Assembly: GCF_040954835.1 (NCBI RefSeq)
Contig: NC_090709.1
Span: 40,404,975-40,468,974, forward strand
DNA from: Lepisosteus oculatus
Lineage: Eukaryota > Chordata > Actinopteri > Semionotiformes > Lepisosteidae
Direction of reading: 5' to 3'
Length of the DNA: 64,000 nucleotides
How positions within the stretch are numbered: the first letter of the stretch is position 1; every line of letters begins with the position of its first letter. The notes beneath the pieces are model-generated. The model did not search any database. It was given only the letters and a program-made list of their open reading frames with translations, and was not told where the DNA came from. Both the position numbers and the translations under genes were made by a program. Below are positions 1-50,695 of the stretch, piece by piece.

Positions 1-41
1 TGTGTGCTGACCCGTATATCGGTCGCGTGTCGATACCGCAG

Positions 42-2360
42 TGGGTGGAGAGTGGCTACTCGACTCAGTGGTGCTACGAGAACTTCATCCAGTTCCGCTC
101 GATGAAGAGGGCCAGGGACGTGCGCGAGCAGCTGGAGGGGCTGATGGAGAGGATCGAGATCGAGCTGACCAGCTGCCAGGGGGACACTGTCCCTGTGCGC
201 AAGGTCTGTCCCCCCTCCTCTCACTCTCTCTCGGTGTCCAGTCAGTGTGTCTGTATGGACTCCTCTCTCTCTCAGTGCAGTGTTCATGTACTGGAGTGTC
301 CAGTCAGTGTGTGTGTATGAACCCCTCTCTCTCTCAGTGCAGTGTTCATGTACTGGAGTGTCCAGTCAGTGTGTCTGTATGAACCCCTCTCTCTCTCTCA
401 GTGCAGTGTTCATGTACTGGAGTGTCCAGTCAGTGTGTGTGTATGAACCCCTCTCTCTCTCAGTGCAGTGTTCATGTACTGGAGTGTCCAGTCAGTGTGT
501 CTGTATGAACCCCTCTCTCTCTCAGTGCAGTGTTCATGTCCTAAAGTGTCCAGTCAGTGTGTCTGTATGAACCCCTCTCTCTCTCAGTGCAGTGTTCATG
601 TACTGGAGTGTCCAGTCAGTGTGTCTGTATGAACCCCTCTCTCTCTCAGTGCAGTGTTCATGTACTGGAGTGTCCAGTCAGTGTGTCTGTGTGTGAACCC
701 CTCTCTCTCTCTCAGTGCAGTGTTCATGTACTGGAGTGTCCAGTCAGTGTGTGTGTATGAACCCCTCTCTCTCTCAGTGCAGTGTTCATGTACTGGAGTG
801 TCCAGTCAGTGTGTCTGTATGAACCCCTCTCTCTCTCAGTGCAGTGTTCATGTACTGGAGTGTCCAGTCAGTGTGTGTGTGTGAACCCCTCTCTCTCTCA
901 GTGCAGTGTTCATGTACTGGAGTGTCCAGTCAGTGTGTCTGTGTGAACCCCTCTCTCTCTCAGTGCAGTGTTCATGTACTGGAGTGTCCAGTCAGTGTGT
1001 GTGTATGAACCCCTCTCTCTCTCAGTGCAGTGTTCATGTACTGGAGTGTCCAGTCAGTGTGTGTGTGTATGAACCCCTCTCTCTCTCAGTGCAGTGTTCA
1101 TGTACTGGGGTGTCCAGTCAGTGTGTGTGTGTGAACCCCTCTCTCTCTCAGTGCAGTGTTCATGTACTGGGGTGTCCAGTCAGTGTGTGTGTGTGAACCC
1201 CTCTCTCTCTCAGTGCAGTGTTCATGTACTGGAGTGTCCAGTCAGTGTGTGTGTATGAACCCCTCTCTCTCTCAGTGCAGTGTTCATGTACTGGAGTGTC
1301 CAGTCAGTGTGTGTGTGTGAACCCCTCTCTCTCTCAGTGCAGTGTTCATGTACTGGGGTGTCCAGTCAGTGTGAACCCCTCTGTCTCTCTCAGGCTGTGA
1401 CGGCTGGGTTCTTCTACCACACTGCTCGCCTCAGTAAGTCGGGGTACAGGACGGTGAAGCACCAGCAGACGGTCTACGTCCACCCCAACAGCTCGCTGTT
1501 CGAGGAGCAGCCCCGCTGGCTCATCTACCACGAGCTGGTCTTCACCACCAAGGAGTTCATGAGACAGGTACCCCTCTCTCTGTCTGCGTCTGTCTGCGTG
1601 TGTCTGCGTGTGTCTGCGTGTGTCTGCGTGTGTCTGCGTGTGTCTCTGCGTGTGTCTCTGCGTGTGTCTCTGCGTGTGTCTCTGCGTGTGTCTCTGCGTG
1701 TGTCTCTGCGTGTGTCTGCGTGTGTCTGCGTGTGTCTGCGTGTGTCTGCGTGTGTCTGCGTGTGTCTGCGTCTCTCTGCGTCTCTCTGCGTCTCTGTGCT
1801 TGCCTGTCTCTCTCTCTCTGCCCGTGTCTGTGTGTCTCTGTGTGTCTGTCTCTCTCTCTCTCTGCCCGTGTGTCTGTGTCTCTGTGTGTCTCTGTGTGTC
1901 TCTGTGTGTCTCTGTGTGTCTCTGTGTGTCTCTGTGTGTCTCTGTGTGTCTCTGTGTGTCTGTGCTTGTCTGTCTCTCTCTCTCTCTGCCCGTGTGTCTG
2001 TGTGTGTCTGTGTGTGTCTGTGTGTGTCTGTGTGTGTCTGTGTGTGTCTGTGTGTGTCTGTGTGTGTCTGTGTGTCTGTGTGTCTCTCTCTGCCCGTGTG
2101 TGTGTGTGTGTGTGTGCTTGCCTGTCTCTCTCTCTCCCCACCCGTGTCTGTATTGGCGTGACTGCAGACAGTGCCAGGCAGGCGCGGGCGGGCGGGCTCT
2201 GTCCTCACTCGGGCCCTCTCCCCCTGCGCAGGTGGTCGAGATCGACAGCTCCTGGCTGCTGGAGGTGGCGCCCCACTACTACAAGTCCAAGGAGCTGGAG
2301 GACAGCGCCAGCAAGAAGATGCCCCGGCAGCAGGGGAAGACGAGGGACGAGCTGGGCTGA
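42..2360 (+). CDS. dhx16: DHX16 (Prp2-type DEAH-box RNA helicase), last three coding exons
   Basis: These are the C-terminal 154 residues of DHX16, the spliceosomal DEAH-box ATPase (yeast Prp2 homologue) that remodels the activated spliceosome before the first catalytic step. Exons are 42-203, 1394-1567 and 2232-2360. All joins are phase 0 with GT-AG borders, and the stop is TGA at 2358-2360. The protein reads almost colinearly with vertebrate DHX16. Landmarks are [20 protein letters not shown], the [13 protein letters not shown] block at the start of the second exon, [20 protein letters not shown], and the end KTRDELG. This is the OB-fold and extreme C-terminus; the helicase core lies upstream, outside the window. 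The first exon is taken to start after the AG at 40-41, because bases 1-41 do not encode the conserved residues that precede this tryptophan. That acceptor has a poor pyrimidine tract. Both introns are filled by tandem repeats. Confidence 0.96.
215..1393 (+). repeat. 62-bp minisatellite filling a DHX16 intron
   Basis: About 18 head-to-tail copies of a 62-bp unit. Each contains GTGTCCAGTCAGTGTGT, then AACCCCTCTCTCTCTCAG, then TGCAGTGTTCATGTACTGGA. Copies differ by one or a few bases and by TG or CT slippage. The last copy runs straight into the true splice acceptor at 1392-1393, so every unit carries a copy of the pyrimidine tract and AG. The same unit recurs in reverse complement at 6,722-7,112 and 16,146-16,345. 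Confidence 0.95.
1575..2150 (+). repeat. TGTGTCTG/TGTGTCTC microsatellite in last DHX16 intron
   Basis: Almost the whole 664-bp intron is made of short TGTGTCTGCG, TGTGTCTC and TGTGTGTC runs, separated by CTCTCTCTGCCCGTG interruptions. It is pyrimidine/GT rich on the plus strand. The normal acceptor (CCCCTGCGCAG) follows at 2231. Open frames through this block on either strand are repeat artefacts. Confidence 0.95.
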
Positions 2361-6721: not shown

Positions 6722-7112
6722 GTGAGAGAGAGAGAGGGGTTCATACAGACACACTGACTGGACACTCCAGTACATGAACACTGCACTGAGAGAGAGAGGG
6801 GTTCACACAGACACACTGACTGGACACTCCAGTACATGAACACTGCACTGAGAGAGAGAGGGGTTCACACAGACACACTGACTGGACACTCCAGTACATG
6901 AACACTGCACTGAGAGAGAGAGGGGTTCATACACACACACTGACTGGACACTCCAGTACATGAACACTGCACTGAGAGAGAGAGGGGTTCACACAGACAC
7001 ACTGACTGGACACTCCAGTACATGAACACTGCACTGAGAGAGAGAGGGGTTCACACAGACACACTGACTGGACACTCCAGTACATGAACACTGCACTGAG
7101 AGAGAGAGGGGG
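6722..7112 (-). repeat. 62-bp minisatellite, inverted relative to the DHX16 intron array
   Basis: Six to seven copies of the DHX16-intron unit in reverse complement (CTGACTGGACACTCCAGTAC, ATGAACACTGCACTGAGAGA). The first copy begins at the GTGAGAGAGAG of a donor-like site. The shared unit shows the array exists at more than one locus. Confidence 0.93.
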
Positions 7113-7497: not shown

Positions 7498-8340
7498 ATG
7501 CTAGCGGTCGCCATGCCGACGGAAGCCGGCGACAAGGGCGCCGAGGGGGGCGGGGCCGGGGGCGGGGCCGGGGGCGGGGCTTGGGGTCGCCGCCCAGGCA
7601 GCGCCAGCAGCGAGCGCAGCCAGAAGGGGGCGGGCGCGCGGCCGGAGAAGGGGAGGGCGAGCCGGCGGCGGCGGCGGCGGGAGCGGAGGGCCCTGGAGGC
7701 GCCCGGCGGCGGGGAGGCGGGCGAGCCGGGCGAGCCGGGCGAGCTGGGCCTGGAGGTGAGCGAGCAGGAGTGCGTCGTCTGCTTCTGCGCCTTCGACAAC
7801 CTCTTCAAGACGCCCAAGCTGCTGGCCTGCGGGCACACCTTCTGCCTGGAGTGCCTGGCCCGCATCAACGTGGCCTCGGCCCGCCTCACCAGCCTGCCCT
7901 GCCCGCTGTGCCGCGCGCCCACGCCGCTGCCCCACGGCCGCGACCTCACCCGGCTGGCCACCGACGCCCGCGCGCTGGGCCGCCGCCGCCCGCCGCTCTC
8001 CGTGCGCTTCGACCGCAGCCGGGGCCGGCTCTTCGTGCGGGGCCCCGGGGCCCTGCCGGGGCTGAAGCGGGGGGGCGGGGCGGCCGCCGGCCCGTCCCTG
8101 GAGGTGGGGCGCCCCCCCAGCCGGGCGCCCGGGCGCCTGCGGCGGTTCTTCCGCTCCGACGGGTGCTACTACGGGGTGCTGGCGGTGGTCGTGCTGGTGA
8201 TCGTCGTGCTGCTGCTGCTGGGGGTCCTGGCCTTCCTGACCGTGCCCGGCCTGGGGGGCGGCTCCCGCCCCACCTCCTCCTCCTCCTCCTCGGCCCCCAA
8301 CACTTCCGGGTCGCAGGCCACCGGCCAGCCCAATCCCTGA
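7498..8340 (+). CDS. RING-finger membrane protein, RNF183/RNF223/RNF225-like E3 ligase
   Basis: Intronless coding region of 280 residues. Residues 1-90 are a low-complexity Gly/Ala/Arg-rich region. A C3HC4 RING follows at about 92-138, with zinc ligands C92, C95, C111, H113, C116, C119, C135 and C138. A hydrophobic segment at about 224-249 (YYGVLAVVVLVIVVLLLLG) can span the membrane, and the tail is Ser/Pro-rich. A RING followed by one C-terminal membrane anchor is the layout of the RNF183/186/223/225 family of small membrane E3 ubiquitin ligases. The text around the RING (FDNLFKTPKLLACGHTFCLE) fits that group. The exact orthologue is not decided. The ATG at 7,498 has A at -3; the next ATG, at 7,513, is also possible. 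A splice acceptor ends at 7,390, so 7,391-7,497 is 5' UTR. The exon is extremely GC-rich. Confidence 0.9.
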   Translation: MLAVAMPTEAGDKGAEGGGAGGGAGGGAWGRRPGSASSERSQKGAGARPEKGRASRRRRRRERRALEAPGGGEAGEPGEPGELGLEVSEQECVVCFCAFDNLFKTPKLLACGHTFCLECLARINVASARLTSLPCPLCRAPTPLPHGRDLTRLATDARALGRRRPPLSVRFDRSRGRLFVRGPGALPGLKRGGGAAAGPSLEVGRPPSRAPGRLRRFFRSDGCYYGVLAVVVLVIVVLLLLGVLAFLTVPGLGGGSRPTSSSSSSAPNTSGSQATGQPNP

Positions 8341-18243: not shown

Positions 18244-20085
18244 TCACATCCTCCGGCGGTGCTCCACCTCCGAGTACAGGGAAGACTCGGCGCGCTGCGG
18301 CGGTTTGCTCCGGGGGCGTTTCGGGCCGCCCTGGATCTGCAGCGTGGCGTAGTTCAGCGCTTCGTCGTCGTCGTCGTCATCCTGGAGGGGAAACAGACAC
18401 GAGCGGCACAGAGTGGGGCTCAGGATTTAAAACACACACACACACACGTTTATCCTCCCTCTGGTGGCACCGGTCACAGGGGCTCTGGGGGTGTGGCCGG
18501 AGGGGCGACGGGTTCGAATCCAGATCGCCTCTGCGCTGCGGCACGCCTGTGTGTGAGGGCGCTCCACCCGGATCGCTGCGCGGAGAGGGAATCCGCCCCA
18601 GGGGTCCTGATCTCTAGACTCTAGCGCCGCGGGAGACAGCGGGCTTACCTGCGCCGTGCCTGCGCCGCGCCTCCTCTCCGCGCTCGCCCGCCCGCCCCCT
18701 GGCTCCCCGGCGCTTCCCGGGCCTGAGGGGGACACGGACCGGGACCGCTCGGTTACCCCACTGCTCCTCCGGTTTGGCCCTGCGGTAGCCGAGCAAGATC
18801 GCCAAATGGGGGAAAAGGGTGGGACCGGAAGGCGTTATGGGGGTGATGGGGTCGGTCCAGTCCGTCACTGGGGTACAGCCCCCCTCTGTCGCTGACATAT
18901 TTACAGCTCACTGTCTCAGGAAGGTGTTATGGAGGTGATTGTCATGGAGGTTGTGATGTTGATGAAGATGGAGGTGATGTTGATGAAGATGGAGGTGATT
19001 GTGATGGATGTTGATGTTGATGAAGATGGAGGTGATGATGAAGATGGAGGTGATTGTCATGGAGGTCGTGATGTTGATGAAGATGGAGGTGACTGTGATG
19101 AAGGTGGTGATGGTGATGATGGAGGTGATTGTCATGGAGGTTGTGATGTTGATGAAGATGGAGGTGATTGTGATGGGGGTGGTGATGATGAAGATGGAGG
19201 TGATTGTGATGAAGGTGGAGATGATGATGACAACGAAGATGATGTAATGGAGGTGATTGTGATGAAGGTGGTGGTGATGAAGATGATGTAGTGGAGGTGA
19301 TTGTGATGAAGATGCTGGTAATGGCGGTGATGAAGATGATCAGGGCAGCCCTCACCTTTCTGCCGACGGCACCAGTAGACCCAGGCGGACGACCCCAGGA
19401 CCCCCAGCAGAAGGACCGAGGCCAGCAGTGACCAGCACAGCGTGCAGGACCGGTCCACCTCCTCCTCCTCCTCCAGGTCAGTGCTCCTCCCCCCTCCTGA
19501 AGGACACCAGCGCCCAGGATCAGAGCTCAGGTCCGGACAGCGGTACAGCACGGACCCCCCTCCCCCCAGACCCAGGAGCAATCTCCCCCCTCCTGCAGCG
19601 CACGTCCTCAACCACTCGCTGCGCAAAGCCATACACGTCGGCGCTACGAACTTCCCGCACGGTCTGTCAAAGGGTTTTTTTTTTTTTTTTTTTACAGATC
19701 TACCGTCCAGAAACACATTTATGCGTCCGGTCCCTGTTCTTATTATTGACTATGCGTGTGTGTGAGGTGGTGTGCACATCGTGTGTGGTTGTCTGCTGTG
19801 CTGTGCTGTGCTGTGTGTGTGTGTGTCCAGAGCTCAGCGCGGTGAAGAACCCCTCTGTGCGCGAACACAGGGCGGTGAAGTCCCCTACTGCAGATCCTCG
19901 GCACGGCTCTGATCGCCAGAACAAGCACAGAATAGCGCTGGCGTGACAAAACACTCCTACGGGTCCCCTTACAAACACTGTTGGCTTTGCGGTATTCGTA
20001 CCAAATACATTTCCCACTTATGATATTTTTTTTTCCGTTTCCCCCTGGGGGACATGATCTGTGCCCACGTCAAAATAACACTTTT

Positions 20086-20116
<31 letters not shown>

Positions 20117-23100
20117 CAAAAACAGGACGCGCACGACTACAGCTCGCCTTGTCTCCGGCGGGAAAGGCAACTACGGGTTCACCCATTATAGTCAAGACGT
20201 GGAGATGATCGCGGGGATTTTAACCATGTACAATAAATATATATATATATGCTGTTCGTCCATACGCCCCAGAAACGTCACGACTTGTTAAATGACCTCA
20301 CCGCTAAATGTAAAATCGGGGCCGCCGTCTGTAGACTTTTTGGGTTCAAAACTTCCGAGTTCGGGTTAAAAAAAGAAAGTGCAGAAAAGGAGAAATGATT
20401 CGTTCCTACGTTAAATGTTATCGACGAAATAATATGATCGTGTCACGAACTCATTACAAACGTTTGCTGGAGCGATTACCAACGTACCGATGCCCTGGGA
20501 GAATTCAAGGACCGGGTCTGATCTGACAGAGACGCGGGGGAACCTTTCTCCGTCCGCGAAGGCAGGAGGGAGGGCGGTTCGGCACGTCCCCGTTCTCTGA
20601 ACGCCTTCAAACCCAGAGTCCAATCCTGCTTCTTCTGCAGAAGAGCCTCTCCCGACCCGGTTCTGTTCTGTTCTGTCCTCCAACCCTGCTGTATTTAGTA
20701 CCGCCGTGCGCGGTCTCCAACGCGTGTGGTAATTCGTGTTTAATCCCGGCTGTTCTTTTTGTATGAGTTGTTGTTGTAGTGAAGTGATTTATAAAATAAA
20801 GGTACAAGTATTATTTGGAATTACAAGAGTCCATCAGATGCCTCTGCCCCATCCTCGTCGCCAAAATGTGTTGTATATCTTTACACGAAGCAAAGACTGA
20901 CACGGAGGCGGGTGTGGAGCGGTGAGCTATTTATCAAAGTGAAGCTTGTTTGTACAGACCGTTACCCTGCCGATCCGACCCCTCTCTCTCTCTCTCTCTC
21001 TCCAACCAGCTCTCCTCAGCTGTCCCCCAGCTCCCCAGTTCTTCCCGGTTTTCTCCCTCGCTTGTTCTGGCGCCGGGAGACTCCTGCAGCTTCGGAAAAC
21101 GGGATCCGATGGACTCTCACTTGTCATTCCAAATCATACTTATACCTTTCTTTATAGATATAGCTCTCACTGTACGACAGCTGTCGTCCCGTCAAGCGCA
21201 TTGAGAAGCCATCTTTAGATAGAGAGATACTTTATTGATCCCGTGAGCGAAATTGCAGTGCAACAGCAGCTTCACACACACAACACAGCCACAGTGTAAC
21301 GAATGATACAATACTAATAATAGTACAATACAGACAATACAATCAGTACAGTGAGGGTGCACTAAAAGAGCGACTCTCAGTCCGGACACACAAAGAACAA
21401 ACTAGAACAGAACAGCACGCAGAAAAATCGTATCACACATATGAATATAAATATAGATATAGATATAAATGTATTGCACGGGTCCCTGGCATATATTGCA
21501 CAAAATACGGTTGTAAACGGGAAAAGAGAAAGAGAACAGATGTCGCAGTAGATGTGTAGATGCGTTCAGTCCAGAAACAGGTCACTGTCGGTGTTCAAGG
21601 CGCTATATAAAATCATGTTAATGTTATAAAAACACTGTCAATGTTAAAGGCGCGATATAAAATGGTGTTGTGTTTATGATGATTATTTATGAATTAAATA
21701 ATCATAAATTACTGGCGACACGCGGGCGGAGGGACGTCGTGCGCGGATTCGCCGTCACGCCACGGAGACGGAGCTGGACAACTGAGAAGTGAAGAGCCTC
21801 TCCGGGCGCTTTTATCGACCGACTGCCCTCTCTCTCTCTCTCTCCCCCTCACCCCTGAGGAAGACCCCCGCAGCCGAAACGTTGTGTCCTAAATCGAAGT
21901 TTTCAGGAAACCCGTACTTGGTTCCTCGGGCCGCGTTCTGACCTTTGAACCCGGGACGCGGCGAACGCGAGGCAGGGGTGCGATTCGTTTAACAGAACTG
22001 TTGGCCTTGGGGGGGACTTCTGTAAATTGAGCAGCAAACAGGACTCGGGAACATTAATCCGAGCGGGGAGGATTAAAACGCACAGAGAAAGGCGGCTCTG
22101 GGAACGGCCGGTCCAGCGGAATTAATAGATGCACACCGCTCGTTCACTCACACAGCGACCATGAATAAATATGTCGATACCGTAAACGAATCTATCTACT
22201 GAATTCTTATTAATCTACGAATACTGCGTGTGGAATTATTAATGGGCTGGATCAGGCTGAAAGCGGCGTCAAAATGGTAGATCGCTCGCGTACGATTCAT
22301 CGGTCATATTGCTGTTGCTCATGATTTTGGGGGGCGCCGGTTAATTATACCGGTTCGTTTGGCTACGAAACGTGTTTCTTTCGTGCTCCTTTTTCTGCGA
22401 TTTAAGCGTGAGCGCCGGCCGAGACTCCGGGGTTTTAAAATAACATCCAGCCCCGCTCGCCCGCCGTGTACAGGACGCGCTTGTTCGCCACCAGAATAAA
22501 ATCAATACGAGATATTGGGAAATACCGACGTGTGTTCGGTCTCACAAGCTCGTCGTGTCTCCCGGTTCAGGTCGAAATGATCGGCGACCTTTTACAGATT
22601 GCGAACGTTTCGGGACGTTTTCTCTTCTTTCTCTCCTTTTAAAGGGATTTTGAAAACGGATGAATTTAGCGAGTTCATAAAAACCCGGGTCTCGTCCCAG
22701 CTGAGCTCTGGATCGATTCGGCGCATCGATCCCCCCCCGGTGCGTCGACGACCCGATTAGACATTTGTTTCGAGGTCGCGTCGGCTGGAGAGGACACGGG
22801 ACACGGGCCAGTCAGTCCACACACTGAGCACGGGTTGGCGACGGCGGGGGGGTGATTCCTGACCCCACCCTAACTCCCTCTTCTTGGCCCAGCCGAGCGA
22901 ATCGATCGGTGATCGGCCGATCGGAACACGAGAGACGACGGGAGACGCCCGGGAGATCAGGACTCTGGGGACCTCGCCGGGGACGATGCCGACTCGGGCG
23001 TCGGACCCCCTCCGCCATCACCCGCAGGCGTAAAAGCCCCCCCCAAAATTGACCCGTTTCGGTCTTTAAACCCGTCTCTCTCTCTCTCCCTCCCAAACCG

Positions 23101-24227
23101 CGCGAAACACGCACTCTCTCTGGTCTCCCCAGCCGTGTCTCCCGTGCCGACGTCTGGGGGAGGGTTGTCACGCGTGCGTTGGTATGGTTGTGTCGTGAAA
23201 ACGTGAATTTAAGCCCCCGGAGACAAGAGACTGGACTGGACTGGACTGGGGGGGGAGGTCTGTACCCCTCGCCTTGCTGCCCGCAGCTTGGGCGACCCGG
23301 TGCCGGATGAAGCGCCTCGGTGTCGGGTGGGCTTGCGCGCTGTGTGGAAACGGCACGGCCCTGTCTCTTACCCGGGAAGACGAGCCGGGTGCCGTTCCCC
23401 ACGACCAGCCGCCCGCCGACCCGGTCGGCGCAGTAGTACATCGCCAGGTCGGCCTCGCCGACGTCCCGGATCCGCAGGCGGACGGAACCGGCGGTCGCGT
23501 CCAGCTCGCCGGTGAGGCGCGGGTCCGGCCCCCGGTGGACGAGCCCTCCCCGCAGGCTCTTGGACACCGCCACCCCCATGGCCGGCGTGGCGTTGGGCCG
23601 CTGGACGAACCACAGGGTCTCGTACTGGAGCGGGATGTCGCAGCGCAGGGTGACGTTGCCCCCGGGCCGGACGGGCGCGGTCGCGATGGAGCCGGCGACG
23701 AGGTCCCGGGTGACTGCGGAGGGGGAGACAAAAACGGGTTTGAGTCAAGGACCAGGAGCCGGCCGACCGCGTGGGTCCGGCCCACGGGCGAGGGGCGACA
23801 CGAAAGAATAGTTTTCATCTCTCCGCCAAAATCTTCTCTCTGCGGGATCTCTCACACGGGCGGTTTATCGCTAAAAAACAAACCCCCCCCCCGGAAAAAA
23901 ATCGATATAAGAAAGCGACTTTTTTCAATTTTCAATTCCATCCCCAAAGGCAGTAAGAGCATCCAGGGTGGACACACAAACAACACAAAACAACACAAAA
24001 CGGGCACGCTGATGGGTGAAATCAAAGTGCAGACTTTGCAAACTTTTTGTTTTGCATGGGCACGACGCGTCCCGACCCCGTCAGGTGCACCGCCGCCCCC
24101 CCGGCTCCTGATCGACGGACGGCCGGACCCGCCGCGGTGCCGGCCTCAGACTCAGCCGGGTCCAGCCGGACTGGCGGTACTCACGGAGCAGGGCGACGAG
24201 AACGGCCGGGCCGGCGGGGACCGTCAT
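18244..24227 (-). CDS. Inhibitory Ig receptor: single VJ-like V domain, TM, two ITIMs
   Basis: Five exons in reading order: 24227-24185, 23713-23372, 19496-19356, 18779-18649 and 18381-18244. All have GT-AG borders and compatible phases (1, 1, 1, 0), giving 264 residues. Exon 1 encodes a short signal peptide (MTVPAGPAVLVALL). Exon 2 is a V-set domain: C39, W49 in ETLWFVQ, the DVGEADLAMYYC motif with C109, then a J-like VVGNGTRLVF. Sequons lie at N34, N55 and N121. Exon 3 gives a Glu-rich stalk (residues 137-141) and a membrane segment at about 148-171 with no charged residue. Exon 4 is a basic, Pro/Gly-rich tail. Exon 5 begins with poly-Asp and has ITIMs LNYATL (Y230) and SLYSEV (Y255), expected to recruit SHP phosphatases. 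The GNGTRLV J-like motif is shared with NKp30 (NCR3), and germline VJ domains with ITIMs recall XMIV and NITR genes. Orthology is not proven. Exons 3-5 are assigned by phase and content, not transcripts. Confidence 0.82.
18925..19325 (+). repeat. GAT/GGA-rich minisatellite in an intron of the Ig receptor
   Basis: Irregular copies of GATGAAGATGGAGGTGATTG, with ATGGAGGTTGTGATGTTGAT variants. It lies inside the intron between the membrane exon and the first tail exon of the minus-strand gene. It keeps frames open on both strands but is not coding. Confidence 0.9.
19497..23371. other. Long intron between V exon and membrane exon
   Basis: No further Ig exon is recognised in these 3.9 kb. Contents include a T tract (19,675-19,693), CAA repeats (20,085-20,115), ATATAT (20,238-20,250) and CT repeats (20,982-21,002). 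There are also retroelement remnants at 21,205-21,905 and CpG-rich unique sequence up to the V exon. A second Ig domain could be hidden here if strongly diverged. Confidence 0.5.
21205..21905 (-). mobile_element. Retroelement remnants (three dispersed-repeat signatures)
   Basis: Three signatures recalled from fish genomes lie together. First, AGATACTTTATTGATCCCG at about 21,226 is the reverse complement of a GGGATCAATAAAGTATCT tail. Second, AAGGCGCTATATAAAAT and its near copy (about 21,599 and 21,648) resemble a SINE-type 3' end. Third, CCTGAGGAAGACCCCCGCAG + CCGAAACGTTGTGTCC (about 21,856-21,890) resembles the GCCGAAACGT motif of a widespread element. Family names need a repeat library. Confidence 0.55.
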
Positions 24228-29153: not shown

Positions 29154-31553
29154 ATGGGCCTGTTCCTCCCTCTGCTCCTCACCCTGCTGCACACAGAGGG
29201 TAGGTACTGATCCCACCTGCTCCTGTCCCATCAGGCACAATATATCTGCTGGTGTACCCCCTGTCCCCAGCTTTGTCACATATCCCCTCCTGCACCCCAT
29301 ATCCTCCACCAGTACCCCACATCCCCTACTGTACCCCATATCCTCCACCAATACCCCACATCCCCTCCTGCACCCCATATCCTCCACCAATACCCCACAT
29401 CTCATACTGTACCCCATATCCTCCACCAATACCCCACATCCCCTCTTGTACCCCACATCCCCTCCTGCACCCCATATCCTCCACCAATACCCCACATCCC
29501 CTCCTGCACCCCATATCCTCCACCAATACCCCACATCTCATACTGTACCCCATATCTCTGTTTGAAAAAAACCAGACGTCTCAAAGAACTCCCAGATTAT
29601 TTCCCAGAAGCCTGGGTTTGTCTGGGCAGAACAACATCCAATCAAGTCGTGTCAAACCTCATGTCCCTTCTCCTGATGTCTCTCCCTGTGTCCCCCCAAT
29701 TCCAGCTCTCGCAGGGACCTCGGTGTGGGTGAGGGTCGGGGATGGGGTCACCCTGCCCTGCGACGGGAGCAGAGCTCTGGGAATCCCGGAGAATGAGCTC
29801 CATGTCATCTGGAGAACTCCGACCAAGAATGTGTGGAGTTTCGAAGGTGGAAGAGAACTCGCTGGTCCTGGGTACGAGCACAGAGCTGAGGTCTCCAGAG
29901 ACGGGATCGGACAGGGGAACTTCTCCCTGACTCTGCGGCGCACGCAGATCTCGGACTCGGATCTGTACGAGTGCTACTATTTCACGGGCTCCTTGCAGTT
30001 TCTGGGGGACGTTGAGCTCTCTGTCACCTGTAAGTCTGTGGGACTCTCAGTTTCTCCATATCGTAGGAAGGGAGATATATCATAAGTGTCTGTTTATAGA
30101 GGAAGGAAAGGATTCTTCAGCTACGCTAGTTAGGAGGACAGAAAAGTGCAAATCATACTACACAGAAACACTCGATTCCCTCATAGCACACAAACAGGCT
30201 ATGAAGGGAGTAATATCTGTGATAATAGTGTAAATATTTTTTTCCACCTAGATCTTAAAGCATCCCTGAATTTGAAGACTGGAGCCTCTCTGTCTGTCCC
30301 ACTGTTCACTGGAGAGCCGGTGGAGGTGCTGTTTGACCCTGCAGGCTCAGGAGACTGGACCTCAGTGTGTTCTGTCCAGAACAGCACAGCCAGCTGTGTC
30401 CCCCAGTACAGAGACAGAGTGTCAGTGGACAATCAGGAGCTCAGACTGCAGGAGCTGAGGGCGTCTGATCAGGGGAGCTACACAGTGAGGGACCTTCAGG
30501 GAAACACCATCAGCACTGCGATCGTCACTGTGGAGGGTGAGCAGGTCTACAGCAGGGGGACTAGAGGGGTCTCCACTCCTGACAGAGGGGGTTCTTATAT
30601 CGCTCTCTGTCCTGATTGTCTTCCAGCTCACAGAGACACTGTCACCCTGCAGGCTGGAGCCTCTCTGTCTGTCCCCCTGCTCACTGCAGAGCCGGTGGAG
30701 GTGCTGTTTGACCCTGCAGGCTCAGGAGACTGGACCTCAGTGTGTTCTGTCCAGAACAGCACAGCCAGCTGTGTCCCCCAGTACAGAGACAGAGTGTCAG
30801 TGGACAATCAGGAGCTCAGGCTGCAGGAGCTGAGGGCGTCTGATCAGGGGAGCTACACAGTGAGGGACCTTCAGGGAAACACCATCAGCACTGCGATCGT
30901 CACTGTGGAGGGTGAGCAGGTCTACAGCAGGGGGACTAGAGGGGTCTCCACTCCTGACAGAGGGGGTTCTTATATCGCTCTCTGTCCTGATTGTCTTCCA
31001 GCTCACAGAGACACTGTCACCCTGCAGGCTGGAGCCTCTCTGTCTGTCCCCCTGCTCACTGGAGAGCCGGTGGAGGTGCTGTTTGATCCTGCAGGATCTA
31101 CTAGGTCTCTCAGGGTTTTCCTGAGCAGCGCAGGGCTCCCTGGCCCCGGGTACGAGCAGAGAGTGTGGGTGCAGGACGGCTCTCTGACACTGCGCTCCCT
31201 CACACCAGCTGATCAGGGGAGCTACACAGTGAGGGACCTTCAGGGAAACACCATCAGCACTGTGATCGTCACTGTGGAGGGTGAGTCTGGACGCCGAAGT
31301 GCTGGAAAATCTTCTTATGAATCATTTTTGGGGTTGTAATGTATTTGATTGAGTATTTTGTCTTTTGAGCTGCCAGCTCTAAACATGTCTGCTCCTTTCA
31401 CCTCTTTTACTGATGATAAGAGTGTTGCTGTGTTTCTCTGCTCCAGAGACGCCTCATCGAGCAGCTCACTTGATCCCAGCGATTGTGGGTCCTTCTGCTC
31501 TGGTCATCGTGATCGCGGTCGCTGTGGTCATGTGGAGGAAACACAGGAAGTGA
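29154..31553 (+). CDS. Multi-domain Ig-superfamily receptor with three tandemly duplicated Ig exons
   Basis: Six exons: 29154-29199, 29706-30029, 30252-30536, 30627-30911, 31002-31280 and 31447-31553. All junctions are phase 1, as usual for Ig genes, and the product is 441 residues. Exon 1 is a signal peptide (MGLFLPLLLTLLH). Exon 2 is a V-set domain: C34, W51, LTLRRTQISDSDLYECYYF with C105. Exons 3-5 are three related Ig domains (GASLSVPLLTGEPVEVLFDP ... SDQGSYTVRD) that lack the canonical cysteine pair. Exon 6 gives a membrane segment at about 415-436 (LIPAIVGPSALVIVIAVAVV) and a basic tail, RKHRK, then TGA. The domain style recalls CD2/SLAM- or B7-like fish receptors; I cannot assign an orthologue. 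The tail has no tyrosine, so signalling would need a partner, unless splicing at GAA|GTGAGA (31,548/31,549) leads to further exons. ISRE and GAS motifs upstream suggest interferon control. Confidence 0.85.
29270..29560 (+). repeat. 39-bp minisatellite in intron 1 of the Ig gene
   Basis: About seven units of ACCCCATATCCTCCACCAAT + ACCCCACATCCCCTCCTGC, pyrimidine-rich on the coding strand, within the intron between signal-peptide and V exons. Confidence 0.92.
30537..31280 (+). repeat. Tandem duplication of an intron-exon module in the Ig gene
   Basis: Introns 30,537-30,626 and 30,912-31,001 are both 90 bp and nearly identical. Exons 30,252-30,536 and 30,627-30,911 are both 285 bp and nearly identical after their first 40 bases. 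The module length is 375 bp. The third copy of the exon (31,002-31,280) keeps the ends but has a different middle. Confidence 0.9.
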
Positions 31554-39242: not shown

Positions 39243-39530
39243 CCTGAGGGCGTCTGATCAGGGGAGCTACACATTGAGGGACCTTCAGGGAAACGCCATC
39301 AGCACTGCGATCGTCACTGTGGAGGGTGAGCAGGTCTACAGCAGGGGGACTAGAGGGGTCTCCACTCCTGACAGAGGGGGTTCTTGTATCGCTCTCAGTC
39401 CTGTTGGTCTTCCAGCTCCACTCACTCTCCCGGTCTGAGAATTGAGAGGCTCAGAGAGACGGACTGTCCTACTGCACCACCAGAGACGGAGGAGAGATCC
39501 CCATCGGAAGAGGCACCAGACTGCTTACAG
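39243..39530 (+). pseudogene. Broken Ig receptor fragment: partial Ig exon + 90-bp intron + V/J-like remnant
   Basis: Bases 39,243-39,325 are nearly identical to the 3' end of the repeated Ig exons of the plus-strand gene (SDQGSYTLRDLQGN). A 90-bp intron (39,326-39,415) is nearly identical to that gene's introns. After the acceptor, 39,416-39,530 is the end of a V exon in another frame. It reads YCTTRDGGEIPIGRGTRLL and then a donor, CTTACAG|GTGGG, in phase 1. Upstream in that frame is a TGA (39,443-39,445), the front half of the V domain is missing, and the entry phase does not fit. The left end is fused directly to satellite. This is a relic of a third receptor, or of a recombination between the two gene types. 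Confidence 0.75.
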
Positions 39531-39869
39531 GTGGGACAAATCCCACTCTTCTTTATCTTTGGTGTGTCAGGATGTGATCTCAGTGTTGAGAGATGAAAAT
39601 ATTTTCCTGCAGCTGTGTGGGGGTTTAGTTCAAACTGGGAAGAGAGCCAGACTGATACCTTGAGGAGGCAAGAGCAGTGGTCCTGTGAGGCTGCTTGTGC
39701 TCTGTGTGGGACATCCTGACGGTGGGTCAGGGGCAGATGAAGGAGGTGTGTTAAGTCTGTAAATTCTCTGGAAAAATGCAGACGTTGGTTGCATTACTTC
39801 CTTGTGGAAGTGTTTATTCCCAGCAGGTGGGTGGAAGTTGGAGCTTGCTCTTGGATGGGTCATATCTAC
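39531..39869. other. Unique sequence after the Ig fragment
   Basis: No exon recognised. The stretch begins with GTGGGACAAATCCC after the donor-like site of the fragment and is moderately AT-rich. Confidence 0.4.
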
Positions 39870-41813: not shown

Positions 41814-43059
41814 AAGTCAAGAGGGAGGACAGACATCCCGACATCGGAGCTCTCTCCCAGTCGGACACCAGGAGCCCTGACGCCCTCATCCTCCCCCATC
41901 GGCTCCATCTCTCCGGTCGTCTTGTCTGGACGTCGGGCTCCAGGATCTCGGGGAAGGTTCCCTCCTCCCAGCCCGGCTCAGGCCTGAGGAGTCTGGAAGA
42001 TCTGGGAGAAGCCAACAGGAAGAAATTCCTCCTGGACCTCGACTCTGGGAGGAGCCCAGCGCCTGGACCCCTCCGAAGACTCAGGCTGACCGGGAGGAGG
42101 AGGAGGAGCCCAGGGGTTTCAGGAGGAGGTGAGGAAGGGGAGAGAGAGCCTGTGGACAACACGCCCGTGTTTCTCCAGGATGGGTCACCAAAACAGCAGC
42201 TCTGGACCGGAGCAGTCGGGACTCGGTGGAGCACAGGCTGCCTTCAGGCATGTTTATTCCCACCAGGAGCCAGGTCAGACCTGTACCAGGCTGGAGAGGG
42301 CACCCCCAGACCTGCAGGTAGAGGACAAGGGGTTGTGCTTGACTGGTCAGTGCAGGATACAGGGTACCCCATCAGCATTGAAGGGCATGAGGTGCCAGGC
42401 AGGTGAGTGCAGACCAGGTGAGTCTCTCCTTCACTGGCTGTCCCTCGCAGGTGACGCTGGTCTTACATGATCGGTGCTGATCGGACCAATCTGGATCCAC
42501 AGACTCCGAGGGGACAGAGCAGGAGTCGTCTCGGGGAGACATCCAGGGTGTCCTGATCTCCTGCCTGCCGGAGCCTGTGAGGATGACCATGATGACGAAG
42601 AGCTGCAGGTGACCCTGATTCAGGCTGCTCCTTAGAGACGAGCTCCAGACAAAGAGCCAGTGGACTCCTCCTATCGGGGCTCCAGTGGGTGACCCTTAGG
42701 GCTGTGTCTTGACCTCCTGCTGTCTCTCGCCCACAAGAACCTGCTCAGTGTGCTGTTGACACTACACTCTCGTACCCGAGTCCAACACCACCCTCCAGGA
42801 CGAGCACAAGGTCAGGTTAGTCCTGTCGCTCCTTTGTCACACTCAGGGCATGAATACACAGCCCTACTAGTGAGAGAGGAGAACTGTTATAAAGTTACTA
42901 GTATTGATATTGGAGCCTGGTGAATAAGTGTTATTGTTGAATTAACACAATCTTGAGTGACGGGTGAACGCTGGGCTGAACACAGATGACGAGGCACAGA
43001 GAGACTGCAGAGCCAGACTGCTGCCCTCAGACACACAAACCAGCTGTGCAGCGTGTCCC

Positions 43060-44360
43060 GGGATGGAGGTGGGATGCTCTCTCCTGGCTCTTTTCCATTT
43101 TCCAGTAAGTCCAGTGGCTTACACTGGGAAGACATGTATGTATGAAGATTGAACCCTTGTTTTTTTTTCCCCTCTATTTTTCCAGGATGTCCAGGGGCAG
43201 ACAGTGGAGAGACAAGCATGGCTGGGATAGAGGTTGGATGTTCTCTCCTAGAATCTTTTCCCTGACTTTCTAGGATGTCCATAAAATGGACAGTGGGAAG
43301 ACAGGTATGGAGGAGGAGTTGGAATGGAGGTTGGATGCTCACTCCTGTCTCTTTTCTCATTTTCCAGGATGTTCAGGGGCTGCCAGTGGGAAGATGGGTA
43401 TAGATAGAGGAGACCATCAATCCCCATTGTCTCCAGCAGTGTCTCCTGCTCTCTGAGGTCAAACAGTCAGGGGTCAAAGGTCAAGGTGGACTTCAATGCA
43501 GGGGAAGTCAGTGGGAAGACCAGTGTGGATGAAGTCCTGTGATCATTTCTGTGGTTTTCCAGAATGTCCAATGGGAAGACGGGCTGTCCAGTGGCAGACA
43601 GTGGGAAGATGATGGGGCTGTATGAAGATTAAACCCTCTCCTGTTTTCTTTTCCTTATTTTCCAGGGGCAGACAGTGGAGAGACAAGCATGGCTGGGATA
43701 GAGGTTGGATGTTCTCTCCTATAATCTTTTCCCTGACTTTCTAGGATGCCTGTAAAATTACCAGTGGAGAGACTGGTATGGAGGAGGAGTTGGAATGGAG
43801 GTTGATACTCTCTCCTGTCTCTTTTCTTATTTTCCAGCATGTCCAGTGGCTGACAGTGGGAAGACCAGTGTGGATGAGCAAGACAGAATGGGGATTGATG
43901 CTCTCTCCTGTCTCCAGCAGCGTCTCCTGCTCTCTGAGCTCATACACCAAAGTCAGGGGTCAAAGGTCAAGATGGACTCTAATGCAGGGGCAGACAGTGG
44001 GAAGACCAGTGTGGATGGAGGTTGATGCTCTGTCCCGTTTTCATTTCTGTAGTTTTCCAGGATGTCCAGAGGCTGCCAGTGGGAAGACGGGTATGTATGA
44101 GGAATTGGGATAGAGGGTAGCTGCTCTCTCCCTGTTTTTTTTTCCTTAATTTCCAGGAAAAGTGCAGAGCCTGACATTGTGGAAGACAGGTATGTATGAA
44201 GTTTGAACCCTGTCCTGTGTTCTTGTTCCCTAATTTTCCATGATGTCCACACTCAGACAGTTGAGAGGCAGGTATGGATGTGGTGTTGGGATTGATCCTG
44301 AACTCTCCTGTATTTTCCGGGCTGACCAGAGGTGGCCAGTGGGAAGACGGGTATGCATGA
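43060..44360 (+). repeat. About 95-bp repeat with acceptor-like TTTTCCAG, left arm
   Basis: About a dozen irregular units: TTTTCCAGGATGTCCAGGGG, CAGACAGTGGGAAGACAGGT, ATGGAGGAGTTGGAATGGAG, TTGATGCTCTCTCCTGTCTC. Every unit has a pyrimidine tract plus CAG. The mirrored block lies at about 58,780-60,380. Confidence 0.85.
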
Positions 44361-44559
44361 AGATTTGAAACCTTTCCTGTCTATTTTCAGGGCTTTTTGA
44401 CTGTGGGTTGCAGGTTTGATTCCAGAGGGGACACAGTCTTGTACCCCAGAGTGAGGTACTTTGCTCAGATGGACTGTTCTGATCATGGTTATCAGTGGCT
44501 GTACTGTAGGGAGTGGAGTGTTGACAATGGTGTACTCGGTTCTCAAGAGTATTGTACCT

Positions 44560-47500
44560 TAATACACTGACAAGTCTGTATGTTGAACTTTGATCTGTAC
44601 TGAGCTTTGTTACTCAATGATAAATACCAGTGTGCTGAAGTCTTTCCTATATAACACTTGAACACCCAAACCTGTGTACTGTACTCCCATCTGCACTGAG
44701 TGTTAATACTGGTAATCCTCACACTTGTATTGTAACTCTCTCCTGTCCTGAGGTTGAGTTCTCAATGACAGACCTGTGTGCTGAGCTATCCTGTGGACTG
44801 TGCTGTAATACTGAAACCAGGGTGCTGAACTTGTACTTGATTTAATTCTCACATTGACACACGAGTGCTGAACTCTCACCTATTACTGTGCTTTCATACT
44901 CGTGTGTACTGACCGCTCATGTGGACTGTACTATCATTCTTAAACCAGTGTGCTGAACTCCAACTTGTAAGTGGGCTTTAATACTCAAACTCTGTGCTCA
45001 GCTCTCAACTGGACTGGACTAAAATACTTAAACCACTGTGCTGAACCTTAACTTGTAAGTTAGCTTTAATTTTCAGAGACGTGTATGTTGAACCTTCATC
45101 TGTAGCGTACTTCAATACTTGAATCTGTGTGCTACACTCTTACCTTGATTGAGTTTTAATACTTGATGTTGTGCCTGTGTGCTTTACTCTCACGTGTTTT
45201 AAATTCTCAGATCGGTGTGGTCAGCTCTGGACTAAAACTTAAACCAGTGCTTTTTTCTGTGTTTTAAATAGTGAAACCTGTGTTCTGAAGTCTCCTCTCC
45301 ACTGAGCTGTAATGCGTGGTAATACTTAAACCTGTGAACTTAACTCGCGTTTACTGTACTTTAATACGTCAATCTGTGTCATCAGGTCTCACCTGGACTG
45401 TACTGAAATACTTAAACCAGGCAGGTGAGCTTGTACTGAGCTTCAATATTCAGAGATGTGTATGCTGAGCCTTCATCTGTAGTGTACTTCAATACTCATT
45501 TGTGTGCAACACTCTTACCTCTATGGAGTTGTGTTCAATGACACACCTGTGTGCTTTACTCATCTTTGCTGTACTATAAATGTGAAACCAGTGTGCTGAT
45601 CCCTAATTTGTACCGTAACTGAGCTTTAATACTCACTTGTACACACATGTATGCTAAACATTCACAAGCAGTGTATTTTAACACTCAAATCTGTGCCCTG
45701 GACTGTCAACTGTACTGTTTGAGTACTCAGCCCTGTGGGATGAACTGTAACCTGTACTGTTGTAATACTCAGGTCTGTGAACTTGCATGTCTGGCTGGTA
45801 CTATCTTACAATGCTCAGACTTGTTCTGAACTCTCACCAGTACTGAGCTTTAATACTTAAACCAGTCTGCTGAACTCACTTGTACGGATCTGTAATATTC
45901 AGGGACGTGTATGCTGAACCTTCATCTATAGTGTACTTGTATACTCATCTGTGCTACACTCTTACCTTGACTGGGTTTCAGTAGTCATTGACACACCTCT
46001 CACCTTTTAAAAAAAAAAAAAAAATAATTCTCAGATCTGTGTGCTCAACTCCTCACTTGGACTGTACTAAAGTACTTAACCTAGTGTGCTGATCTCTTGT
46101 TCAGACTGAACTTTATTACTCCGTACTACAACCATTACTTAAACCTTCACTGGCAGTGTACTTTAATACACAAGGCTGGGTGAAACTTCAACTGTCCTAT
46201 TATAATACTCAGCCCTGTGTACTGTGCTGTTAGAGTAGAGGGAGTGGTGTACTGAACTGTCACTTGTACCCTTTTGTAACAGTCCCTCGTCAACCTGTAT
46301 TTCAGTGTAAAATTCAGACTTCTGCTCGACACGTTCAGCTGTACTTGATGGTAATACCAGACCTCTGTGTTGTATGTTACTTTAACAGCACGTTGATGGT
46401 GTAGAACTAGACTGAGGGCAAAAAGCACACCGAAAACCTGTTTGGGATTTTAAGGTTTAAAAACAAACTTTCTCTAAAACTGATCAAACAAAATGAGCTG
46501 TACTCTACATTAGAATTTGTGAACTGTTACTTCTTGTGTAATAATACCCTTTTGTTCTGTAATGTCAACTGTCACCTGTAATCTGTGTACTGTACTGTGA
46601 TATCTGTCATCTGTTGTAATATCCTCCATATTTACTGTACTATAATATAATAACCTGAGCAGTGTACCAAACTGTCTCCTGTAATCATTATAAGACTGAA
46701 CTGTTATGCCACAGCTGAAATAGTTTCCTTTCTTCTTTTCAGCAGGGAAGAACCCTGGACTTGTTCCTGTGCTGCCTACAGCTGCTGATAGAGATTCCTA
46801 CTTTAAACTGTGTTGTAACACTCAGCCCTGTGTACTGTGCTGTTGTAAAATTAATACTGGTGTGTTGAACTGTCATCTGTACTGTTTTTTAGTATGCAGC
46901 CTGCTCTAGTGTACGGTGTTGTATACTGAACTGTCACTTATCCAATGTTGTAACACTCAGATCTCTGTACTGTTTCAGTGTAACACATGCAGAGTGAACT
47001 ATCTGACAATGTCATCTGTTCTTACTGTAACACTCTCCTGTGTACTACTGTAAAATTAAGACTGGTGTGTTGAACTGTCAACTGTACTGTTTGTTAATAC
47101 GCAGACCTCTGTAGTGTATGGTGTTGTAACAGATGGACAGGCATACTGAACTGTCACCTGTACTATAATGTAACACTTGCTCTGTACTGTATTTCAGTGT
47201 GACATATGGAGTGTGGACGAACAGAAAACATCAGTGGTACTTGACTGTAATACTCAGCCCTCTGTACTGTATTATGTGAACTGTTACCTCTGGTGTGTTG
47301 TAATACTCACTTTTGTTTGGAACTGTTATCTGTCCTGTTCTCTTACTCATGCCTGGCTATTGTACTACTGTAAGGTATGGACTACTCTATTGAACTGTCA
47401 CTTTCACCATGTAACAATCACCCTCTCCACTGTATTTGAGTGTAACAGATTTCTATCTGAAAATGTCACCTGTAGTGTGTTGTAATACACAGCCCTGTGT

Positions 47501-47860
47501 ACTGTACTGCCCTGTGCTCTGTTACCTGTATTATTGAAATACCCAAACCTGTGGCCTGTGCTGCAGTGTAATACTCACTTCTGTCTAAATCTGTCACCTG
47601 TACTCAATACTGTCTATACTAGTCTACTGTCAATAGTGCCATGTGAACTGTCACCTTTATCATTTGTATTGTAGTGTAATACTCAGATATATGACCCAAA
47701 CTCTCACCTGTACCTGATTGTAAGATGTAAAGGTATGTAATGTAATACTGAGATTTGCTGCCTTGGCTCAGGCCTGCTGTTGCAATATCACACCTGGCTC
47801 CTGTATTGTCACACTCCACTGGGGGACTGTTCTGTTGTGAATGGGTCAGACAGCTGTACT
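44560..47860 (+). repeat. Degenerate repeat of TGTACTGTAATACTCA type, left arm
   Basis: 3.3 kb of diverged copies of CTGTACTGTAATACTCAAAC and GTGTGCTGAACTCTCACC with a period of roughly 40-50 bp. No coding signal. The mirrored block is at about 54,790-58,520. Confidence 0.8.
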
Positions 47861-48899
47861 GCTCTTACTATTTTAATCCCTACCTGTCCACTCCCCAGTA
47901 TGGTGCTGTAGTGGACAATGTCCTTTCCTGAGCTTGAGCCTCTCCGAGCCTGAGCTTGTTCCTGTGTTTTACACCCTCTCGCTGGGTGAGGCTGGAGCTG
48001 GAGTCCTGTTTTTTCCCCACAGGTGATAGAGGTGTTCAAACAGGGACCATGAGACCCCACAGGTGGGGTGGGGGAATGGAGGCAGGGGAGTGGTGTCTGA
48101 GAGGAGGAAGACTCTTTTAGGAACGGTCCTACTGTTTAGGCACAACTCCCTTTTTTCCAGTTCTAGCCCATCTTTGGGTTCTTTGGCTTCATTTTTCCCT
48201 TCCCAATGGATTAGGAACATACACGTCCGGAGTTCTCCTCCTGTTCTGTGGTCATCATGAAGTGGACTTGTTCCCAGGGGGCAGACCGATCTGTTGGGTG
48301 TTCTTTTGTGTTGTGACTGTGCGTGGGCTCCTAGATGTGTTTTTAAGGTTGTAACGCTCCCTGATTTAACTGCTCTGAGCTGTGACAGGGTTATTGGAGA
48401 GGTGTGTGACTCCTGGCTGGAGTTGTGCTCCAGGACAGAGCTCTGCGTGGGGTCTGTGTGCCGGGAGAAGGAATAGGTCTCCTGGAGGAAACGTAGCCTG
48501 TGAGCAGCAGGAGCTGTGTACAAACACACCACCCCTCTGTCTGAAAGGGGAGAGAGCTGACTGAGCTGTGAGTGAAGCCAGTAAGTACTGGGGAGACTGA
48601 ATATTAATCCACCTGCTGCCTCTGGATACGAGCGATAGAGCAGGAGCTCTTAACTGTTTGAGAGGGAGAGAGCAGGTTACTATTCCACAGAGACCACCAG
48701 TCTGCTTTCTTTTCAATATAACACACCACCTTGCTCTTGGCTCCCTGGTGCAGTCATCTGCTCCAGGCTGGACTGGTCTTACACTGAGAGATACAGGTGG
48801 GGCAGTGGAGGAGTGTGTTTAAAATGGGCCAAGGGAGGGGTACAGTCTCAACCCTCTATTACTCTCTCATTGAGACAGTCCTGCTGCAGGACTTCATGA

Positions 48900-48986
48900 A
48901 CTACATTTCCCAGCAGGCACTGAGGATGATGGTGGCCAATAGGCTGCCTCCCCTGGGTTAATGAGGCTCAGCTGGTGTATATAAGG
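48900..48986 (+). promoter_or_regulatory. Promoter-like cluster (ZNF143-type motif, CCAAT, TATA), left arm
   Basis: ACTACATTTCCCAGCAGGC (48,900-48,918) resembles the ZNF143/THAP11 motif. CCAAT follows at 48,936-48,940 and TATATAAGG at 48,978-48,986. The spacing is that of a compact RNA polymerase II promoter firing towards the centre of the inverted repeat. No downstream coding region is recognised. Confidence 0.5.
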
Positions 48987-50130
48987 AGGGTATGGGAGCT
49001 CAGCTCCTGCAGAGGGGTGAAAGGTGGAGGCAGGGGTCTGTTCAGTTAGTTGGACTTGGGGGTGGGAAGAGGACATCTGAGCTGCAGAGAACCTGGCAGC
49101 AGTTTTAAGAAAGGAAGAGATGGAGGGACAAGCTGGGTGGTTCTCAATGAGCTAGGAGCTGTGCTGGGGGCTGGGTTCAGGTTTTATTAATCTCTTCCTG
49201 AATCAGTCCTCTCCCCTGGGAGCGGGATCCGTGTTCCTGCTGTTTGAAGGCCAGAGGGGGGGGCTCTGGGGTGCAGGTAGGGCCAGTGTTTCTCTTTCCT
49301 CACTGTGGAGGCTCAGCAGGAGCCCTCATGAACCTCTAGAACTAGACTGGACAGGGGCCCTTATTTCTTCCTGGGCTTGTTGCTCAAGGACCAGGGATGG
49401 ATGTGTGCTGGTGACCCTCTCTCATTTGACACCCACCCTGTAGTCAGACCCTCAGGAAGAGGGCTCAGCTAGAGACTCATCACTGGTTTTTCTCCCCATC
49501 TTTTTTAGCTGGGAGGGGTCGAGGGGCTCACCTGGGCCCAGTCCTCCAGTGCAGGAGGCCCAGCGGGGCAGCTCTGGGCACAAACACTCACAGCCACAAG
49601 GTGAGGGATCGCAGTGCTCTTTATTCACAGCGAGGGACCCAGCAGGCCAGAAGCCACAAGACAGACCCTCGCTCTTACCTGGAGCCACCACCAGCTTCAA
49701 ACCAGGCCTGTGGCAAGAAAGCCAGCACTCCCAGTTCAGACCTTCTCCTCTTCTGACACAGCAACAGCAGCAGAGCTCTGAAGCTCTTCTCTCCTGCTCT
49801 GCTCAGCACAACCACTCTCTTCCCCAGCCAAGGCCGGACTGAAGGGCTCTGCTGCCTGCTTTTTAAATGTCTCCCGACCAATGGGCTTCCACCAGTTAGC
49901 CAGGTAATTGTTTGGCGTGGCCTGCTGGGAAATGGAGTTGACATCTTGCTGCCTGAACCTGCTGCCCCTCACAGCGTCCAGAGCGAGTGGCACAGAAGCT
50001 GTTCCTGAAGTAGCCAAGCCAGTCGGCGAGGGAAATAAATCCAATTCAAATAAAAAAGAGCAAGTAGTCTTCTGGGATGAGTAAAATAATTAACGTTTGT
50101 GAGAATTAAATGTAAAAAACTTGTCCCTTG

Positions 50131-50695
50131 GAGGATTTGAACCTGCAGGCTGGAGGGGAGCAGGCGAGAGCTCTTCCACAGAGCCACCGTGTCTCTCTGC
50201 AGGCTGGGGCTCCTGTGGGCTCTTGCTCTTCCCGGCTCAGGGTTCCAGACTGAGCAGTAAAAGGCAGAGCGATGGCATCTCCTCTCAGGGCAGGAGCAGG
50301 TGGAGGAGTGGAGATGGTGCTGCGCTCGTGACTGGGAGGTTGTGAGTTCAAATCCCAGGTGGGACCTGAGGTTGGTAAGAAAAGTACATGATCTCAGTGT
50401 CTCTATTTATCAACATGTCTCTGTTTTCAAGAATTAAATTGACTAAAACAAGCAGCTAGTTTCTCCCTGGATTTGAACCCACAACCTCTCCAATACAGAG
50501 GCAGAGCTCTTCCACAGAGCCACCGTGTCTCTGTTGGTCTGGGGCTCCTGTGGGCTCTTGGTCTTCTTCCCAGGTCAGGGCTGAAACGGAGGGATAAGAG
50601 CCGGACCGAATCCCTCTCCCCTTGGGCCTGGAGCAGGTGGAGGAGTGGAGACGGTGCTGCGCTCATGACCAGGAGGTTGTGGGTTCAAGGCCTGG
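50131..50695. repeat. Cluster of four tRNA-like segments in alternating orientation, left arm
   Basis: Minus 50,131-50,195: B box GGTTCAAATCC at 50,133-50,143, A-box-like TGGCTCTGTGG at 50,176-50,186. Plus 50,297-50,360: AGTTCAAATCC at 50,345-50,355. Minus 50,466-50,530: GGTTCAAATCC at 50,469-50,479, TGGCTCTGTGG at 50,512-50,522. Plus 50,638-50,695: GGGTTCAAGG. The third can form a D stem (GCTC/GAGC) and an anticodon stem (CCTCT/AGAGG) with a 7-nt loop. These are degenerate; I read them as tRNA-derived repeats. Confidence 0.55.

Follow-up and report, generated by a model that had tools for sequence, protein, structure and literature searches.

A predicted germline VJ-type receptor gene with an inhibitory-type tail, probably one of a large family lying near B7-like genes on a fish MHC chromosome

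The window analysed here is a stretch of 64,000 nucleotides (C14:40404975-40468974) in a genome of 1.20 Gb, and the features located in it are collected in Table 1. These include the last exons of DHX16, a putative receptor gene on the opposite strand, a B7/CD276-like gene and the relic of a further receptor V exon. The linkage of the receptor to DHX16, claimed in a preliminary description of this DNA, was upheld by the protein comparison, in which the exon pieces matched human DHX16 at 4.4e-86 and DHX8 at 1.3e-45. A RING domain, which presumably resembles those of RNF223/RNF225, is encoded at 7750-7956 (+), in the interval separating DHX16 from the receptor.

Table 1. Location of the features described in the window (position 1 is its first nucleotide)
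Feature	Position	Strand	Basis
DHX16, last exons (linkage marker)	pieces within 3..2357	+	protein comparison with human DHX16
Receptor exon 5, tail (LNYATL, SLYSEV) and stop	18244..18381	-	reading frame, motif scan, related tails
Receptor exon 4, first cytoplasmic exon	18649..18722	-	reading frame
Receptor exon 3, acidic stalk and uncharged membrane segment	19356..19496	-	reading frame, related exons
Receptor exon 2, V domain and J-like GNGTRLV, both ends in phase 1	23372..23713	-	reading frame, Pfam, splice sites of relatives
Receptor exon 1, leader, begins at ATG	24185..24227	-	joined reading frame
B7/CD276-like gene, V-set exon D1	29714..30028	+	profile and structure matches
B7-like gene, Ig-like exon D2a	30257..30538	+	sequence comparison
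B7-like gene, Ig-like exon D2b	30626..30913	+	sequence comparison
B7-like gene, Ig-like exon D2c	31001..31282	+	sequence comparison
Frame-shifted V-exon relic of the receptor family, J-like GRGTRLL	39416..39535	+	80% DNA identity to L042 over 115 columns

The receptor gene had been described as five minus-strand exons with compatible phases, and this model stood: the exons run from 24227 to 18244, all borders are GT-AG, the phases are 1, 1, 1 and 0, and the joined 738 bp read in frame. The join, however, gives 245 residues followed by a stop, and the 264 residues originally stated for the protein were not recovered. The single V domain with its J-like GNGTRLV was found as announced, the V and J-like strand being encoded unsplit in the same exon, and it scored above the cut-off of the Pfam V-set profile PF07686 (31.6 bits, cut-off 26, E 1.9e-7). 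The gene has no second Ig domain, the membrane exon following directly after the V exon. The uncharged membrane segment and the two proposed ITIMs were likewise located, in exons 3 and 5 respectively, LNYATL (residue 209) and SLYSEV (residue 234) being the cytoplasmic motifs that agree with the ITIM consensus. A third match to this consensus, LQYETL (residue 43), falls inside the V domain, and N-glycosylation sequons are present at residues 34, 55 and 121.

A scan for recombination signals between 23100 and 23950 gave three candidates near the V exon, each of which has five mismatches; two represent one site at two spacings. Across the whole 64 kb, candidates with no more than five mismatches number 318. 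The gene agrees in this with the MHC-linked germline VJ genes, whose V and J-like strand share one exon beside which no recombination signal lies. When solved structures were searched with the window V domain, the best among the matches listed were antibody-type chains, and in a profile search with 12 V domains the best 60 of 5204 were antibody or engineered antibody-like chains. Such matches would tell of kinship within the V-set and of nothing finer. An AlphaFold2 model of the V domain alone had a mean pLDDT of 41.7. Since related V exons, uncharged membrane exons and ITIM tails occur elsewhere on C14, the gene goes beyond what chance would assemble, and as a sequence-based prediction it is confirmed as real.

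Comparison of the 245-residue protein with the genome gave 58 matches at E up to 0.01, which comprise four exons of the gene itself, 50 matches elsewhere on C14 and four off this chromosome, on C1 (one) and C13 (three); the latter four are weak, and in a family of this size all of these counts are lower bounds. In 39 of the 50 C14 matches the matched stretch contains no stop, and in the other 11 it is broken by stops; at least three of the 50 are partial. The main V-exon sites on C14 are at 40.0-40.67, 41.95-41.98, 43.26, 43.90, 45.40-45.64, 46.12-46.15 and 53.7-58.6 Mb, with sparse copies at 9.48, 37.6 and 41.0 Mb.

Twenty regions of 10 kb containing relatives were examined. The V domains of 11 selected relatives share 37-51% identity with that of the window, and most aligned members of the family possess the J-like motif in some form. 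Splice sites were scanned by a script in 18 of the 20 relatives (L040 and L047 being missed by its motif): at least one upstream phase-1 acceptor candidate was present in all 18, and, as for the donor, 12 of them and the window gene have it ten bases past the point where the scanned J-like strand ends, five have it at another place, and in L048 none was found. A related membrane exon, with a hydrophobic run judged by eye to be uncharged, was identified in 19 of the 20 regions, although the exon of L035 contains a stop; none was found in the 10 kb around L045.

Tails with ITIMs were recognized in ten regions (L031, L032, L033, L038, L040, L042, L043, L047, L036 and L029), the tail of L036 ending early, after the first motif, and the match of L029 being weak (E 0.007). 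In the remaining ten regions no ITIM tail was found in the approximately 8 kb searched downstream, and consequently some members of the family need not be inhibitory. Six relatives have a canonical ITSM (TTYAEI or TTYALI) as the second tail motif and three have CTYSDI; SLYSEV of the window gene has S in place of the T of the ITSM. Full members are predicted to consist of a leader, one V domain with a J-like end, an uncharged membrane helix and a tail carrying two tyrosine motifs, the first of them an ITIM.

C14 is the MHC chromosome. It holds 32 of the 33 genome matches to the MHC class I profile PF00129 and all six matches to the class II beta profile PF00969 (38.79-39.05 Mb), and class I alpha-1 and alpha-2 exons lie close together at 38.60-38.72 and 39.136-39.153 Mb and, more weakly, at 41.09 Mb. 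The receptor gene, at 40.42 Mb, is therefore placed between class I groups, the strong one at 39.15 Mb being 1.27 Mb off and the weak one at 41.09 Mb being 0.66 Mb off. The suggestion that the gene belongs to an MHC-linked VJ family gained support from the 50 other V-exon matches on this same chromosome. Class I and class II genes on a single chromosome argue against a teleost, and the NITR-like cluster described below argues for a bony fish; the genome is thus probably that of a holostean, a non-teleost ray-finned fish. PMC8423624 places the bowfin MHC on pseudochromosome 14 and describes that of gar as fragmented in its reference assembly. Thirteen class I matches of identical E (3.4e-15), all covering positions 94-177, are scattered over C14:6.5-33 Mb, and 12 of these sit in frames of 232 codons, which gives them the look of a dispersed, near-identical fragment. 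On another chromosome, at C18:5257500-5272871, four V-set matches of equal score follow each other in steps of 5,017 bases and reach profile position 108; most of the C18 V-set matches listed stop near 93-103.

The B7/CD276-like neighbour of the receptor has a membrane-like stretch near 31.5 kb, after exon D2c. The best solved match of its D1 domain was CD276 (8.8e-19 for the whole chain, which has two such domains, and 1.1e-6 for one domain), followed by MOG, butyrophilins and PD-L1. Against the genome D1 gave 82 matches at E up to 0.001, from which we kept 60 at E up to 7.9e-9, including the window's own (58 on C14, one on C1 and one on C3), and excluded 22 weak ones on C1, C2, C4, C13 and C21. 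These were compared with 52 V exons, namely that of the window, 50 others on C14 and a single one on C1; the three matches on C13 were left out.

A B7-like exon is found within 30 kb of 50 of the 52 V exons and within 15 kb of 37 of them (median 9.7 kb), and conversely 52 of the 60 B7-like exons have a V exon within 30 kb. Both types of gene are present in 13 of 16 clusters, two clusters containing only a B7-like exon and one only a V exon. Since closeness in dense clusters is expected by chance, the weight is carried by the isolated sites where both occur, with a spacing of 7.5 kb at C14:9.48 Mb and of 19 kb at C1:21.9 Mb. Parts of the B7-like gene were directly visible in six of the 20 fetched regions, on the strand opposite to the V exon in four and on the same strand in two; in those four regions, as in the window, the opposite strands make them separate genes. 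What is new here is that the V exons are nearly always near a B7-like exon, the isolated sites included. At five places in C14:43.90 and 53.7-58.6 Mb, V exons form pairs approximately 4-6 kb apart on opposite strands, flanked on both sides by B7-like exons 26-29 kb away, and these places look like either an inverted-repeat unit or assembly duplicates.

A cluster at C13:29.2-29.9 Mb, which we take to be NITR, contains a single V domain (L052) together with two domains that have six cysteines and end in FGNGT (L049, L050). The six cysteines and J-like ends of this cluster fit the criteria in PMC2442602, where the features given for NITR are a germline V with a J-like strand, ITIMs, an uncharged membrane segment and multigene expansion. 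As every one of these recurs in the window gene, it might be regarded as a teleost-type NITR moved into the MHC, and a grouping of the entire C14 family with L052, the only V domain of the C13 cluster, was not rejected by the AU test (p-AU 0.368). Even so, we consider this origin very improbable, given that the genome has its separate NITR-like cluster, that the C14 protein matches C13 only at E 3.2e-4 or worse and that the pairing of the window V domain with L052 was rejected (p-AU 0.0004). The 11 rows from C14 came together as one group in a tree built from 21 V-type domains (69/95, which is not firm, the bootstrap not being settled), and the three rows from C13 did not. In addition, the known clusters of zebrafish and medaka adjoin map4k2, men1, rtn3 or fgfrl1 according to PMC2442602, not DHX16. 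The window gene also differs from NITR in being linked to the MHC and to B7-like genes and in lacking the six-cysteine I domain, a domain that defines the two-domain NITRs and is missing from single-V NITRs. Judged from its sequence, the window gene is probably not a NITR.

The preliminary description had given particular importance to NKp30, with which the window gene shares MHC linkage, a single exon for a VJ-type V domain and the identical string GNGTRLV. NKp30 has a charged residue in its membrane segment and no ITIM, and its ligand is B7H6, so that a B7-like neighbour in the genome is a further likeness; a 2012 paper by Flajnik reportedly has a title on the evolution of NKp30 with a B7 family ligand. 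The V genes named XMIV in Xenopus are said to be MHC-linked, some being inhibitory. Grouping with human NKp30 was neither rejected nor shown for the family (p-AU 0.447) or for the window V domain (p-AU 0.34). Nevertheless, the human NKp30 sequence, checked against 3pv6, found nine weak places in the genome, the best on C30 (E 2.2e-4) and none on C14, and in the best tree NKp30 was placed weakly, on a long branch, with the B7-like rows. Moreover the window gene belongs to a multigene family and has an uncharged membrane segment and an ITIM tail, and GNGTRLV turned out to be one variant of a J-like motif that runs through this family. The special tie to NKp30 was thus not sustained, and an orthologue or direct derivative of NKp30 or XMIV is an improbable reading of the gene.

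Other systems resemble the window gene in part. DICP have a D1/D2 domain pair, whereas the window gene has one Ig domain. Members of the PD-1/CD28 family share the single V domain, and in PD-1 an ITIM is followed by an ITSM, as in the six relatives with a canonical ITSM; however, the second motif of the window gene, SLYSEV, does not follow TxYxxV/I, and the family described here has a J-like strand and an MHC location. In PMC11599192 the markers linked to PD-1 include pcyt1a; the comparison with PD-1 made here covers domain make-up, motifs and location. UrIg and PRARP, which PMC10751288 discusses as non-rearranging VJ genes akin to the antigen-receptor precursors in the MHC, are like the window gene in being non-rearranging VJ genes of the MHC, but UrIg is VJ-C1 and the window gene has its membrane exon in the place of a C1 domain. 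Among the papers listed in the literature searches, which covered few subscription titles, there was none on a fish MHC-linked VJ inhibitory family with B7-like neighbours.

Sequence change was followed in five young copies (L031, L032, L033, L036 and L038), which form ten non-independent pairs. Among these the pN/pS of the V exon was 1.2. The membrane exon showed four non-synonymous differences per 729 sites and ten synonymous differences per 261, and the tail, in four copies, six per 572 and ten per 148, L036 being left out because it departs after the first motif. With each kind of change counted once, there were 24 non-synonymous and seven synonymous changes in V and three and seven in membrane exon plus tail (Fisher p 0.017), and the changes in V lie, by eye, where the CDR loops would be. 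The pN/pS of V was 2.3 for L034/L035/L039 (three synonymous differences only), 0.7 for L042/L043 and 0.27 for L037/L041; diversification of the V domain is not uniform across the family.

For the window V domain against four relatives, pN/pS was 0.67-0.97 at high divergence. These values could suit a gene that is decaying and silent, and decayed copies do exist in the family, as seen in the relic at 39.4 kb, in the stops of 11 of the 50 C14 matches and in L035. This fate is nonetheless unlikely for the window copy, in which all five exons have open reading frames, the splice sites are sound and the two tail motifs are present. We regard the window gene as quite likely to be a member of a large MHC-linked family of germline VJ inhibitory receptors co-duplicated with B7-like genes. 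A competing explanation, evenly balanced in our judgement, is that receptor and B7-like gene are functionally unrelated, that blocks holding both were duplicated and that the receptors bind something else. Duplicated blocks carrying both genes are the plain explanation of the co-location, and the units at 43.9 and 53.7-58.6 Mb, which are inverted and regularly spaced, agree with it, as does the closeness to be expected in dense clusters. On the other hand, the two genes also occur together at the isolated sites on C14 and C1, and their relative orientation varies among the six regions in which it could be seen.

In ITIM receptors, contact with a ligand is followed by phosphorylation by Src-family kinases, recruitment of SHP-1/SHP-2 and damped activation. 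If the window receptor acts in the same manner, its V domain would meet a ligand on another cell, both tail tyrosines would then be phosphorylated by a Src-family kinase, the phosphorylated tail would recruit phosphatases of the SHP-1/SHP-2 type, and these would damp the activation of the cell that bears the receptor. By this analogy the receptor is very likely to inhibit. We infer that a surface Ig protein is its most likely ligand; our tentative first choice is the protein encoded by the co-duplicated B7-like gene, with MHC class I a more doubtful second. We are tempted to suggest, as a possible though doubtful extension, that an inhibitory receptor with an unsplit VJ exon and a B7-like ligand form an expanded two-gene cassette of the MHC which duplicates and diversifies together and would constitute a linked self-recognition system, perhaps a living example of the proto-MHC pairing of receptor and ligand ancestral to NKp30/B7 and to the rearranging receptors.

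In PMC10751288 the non-rearranging VJ genes of the MHC (NKp30, PRARP and UrIg) are cited as evidence that the precursors of antigen receptors shared a chromosome with MHC genes, from which a bearing of the present family on the origin of rearranging receptors may fairly be inferred. The family adds some 50 more VJ exons, carried by the MHC chromosome of a fish and nearly all close to a B7-like gene, and so provides numerous natural pairings of a receptor with a candidate ligand in which the joint origin of receptors and ligands can be tested. It also sets apart, inside one genome, a kind of VJ receptor from an NITR-like cluster.

Some minor features of the window can be added. Just ahead of the V-exon relic lies a fragment of a B7-like D2 exon (39244-39327, +), so that the two together have the look of a decayed cassette. 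A minisatellite situated between two DHX16 exons (234-1389) reappears 5 kb off in the opposite orientation (6726-7111), the two stretches having mostly 95-98% identity. The window also contains a very large imperfect palindrome, the inner arms of which (46868-51106 with 51565-55868) share 84% identity, while its outer pieces (42416-46097 with 56918-61015) match at about 79-85% identity, in pieces.
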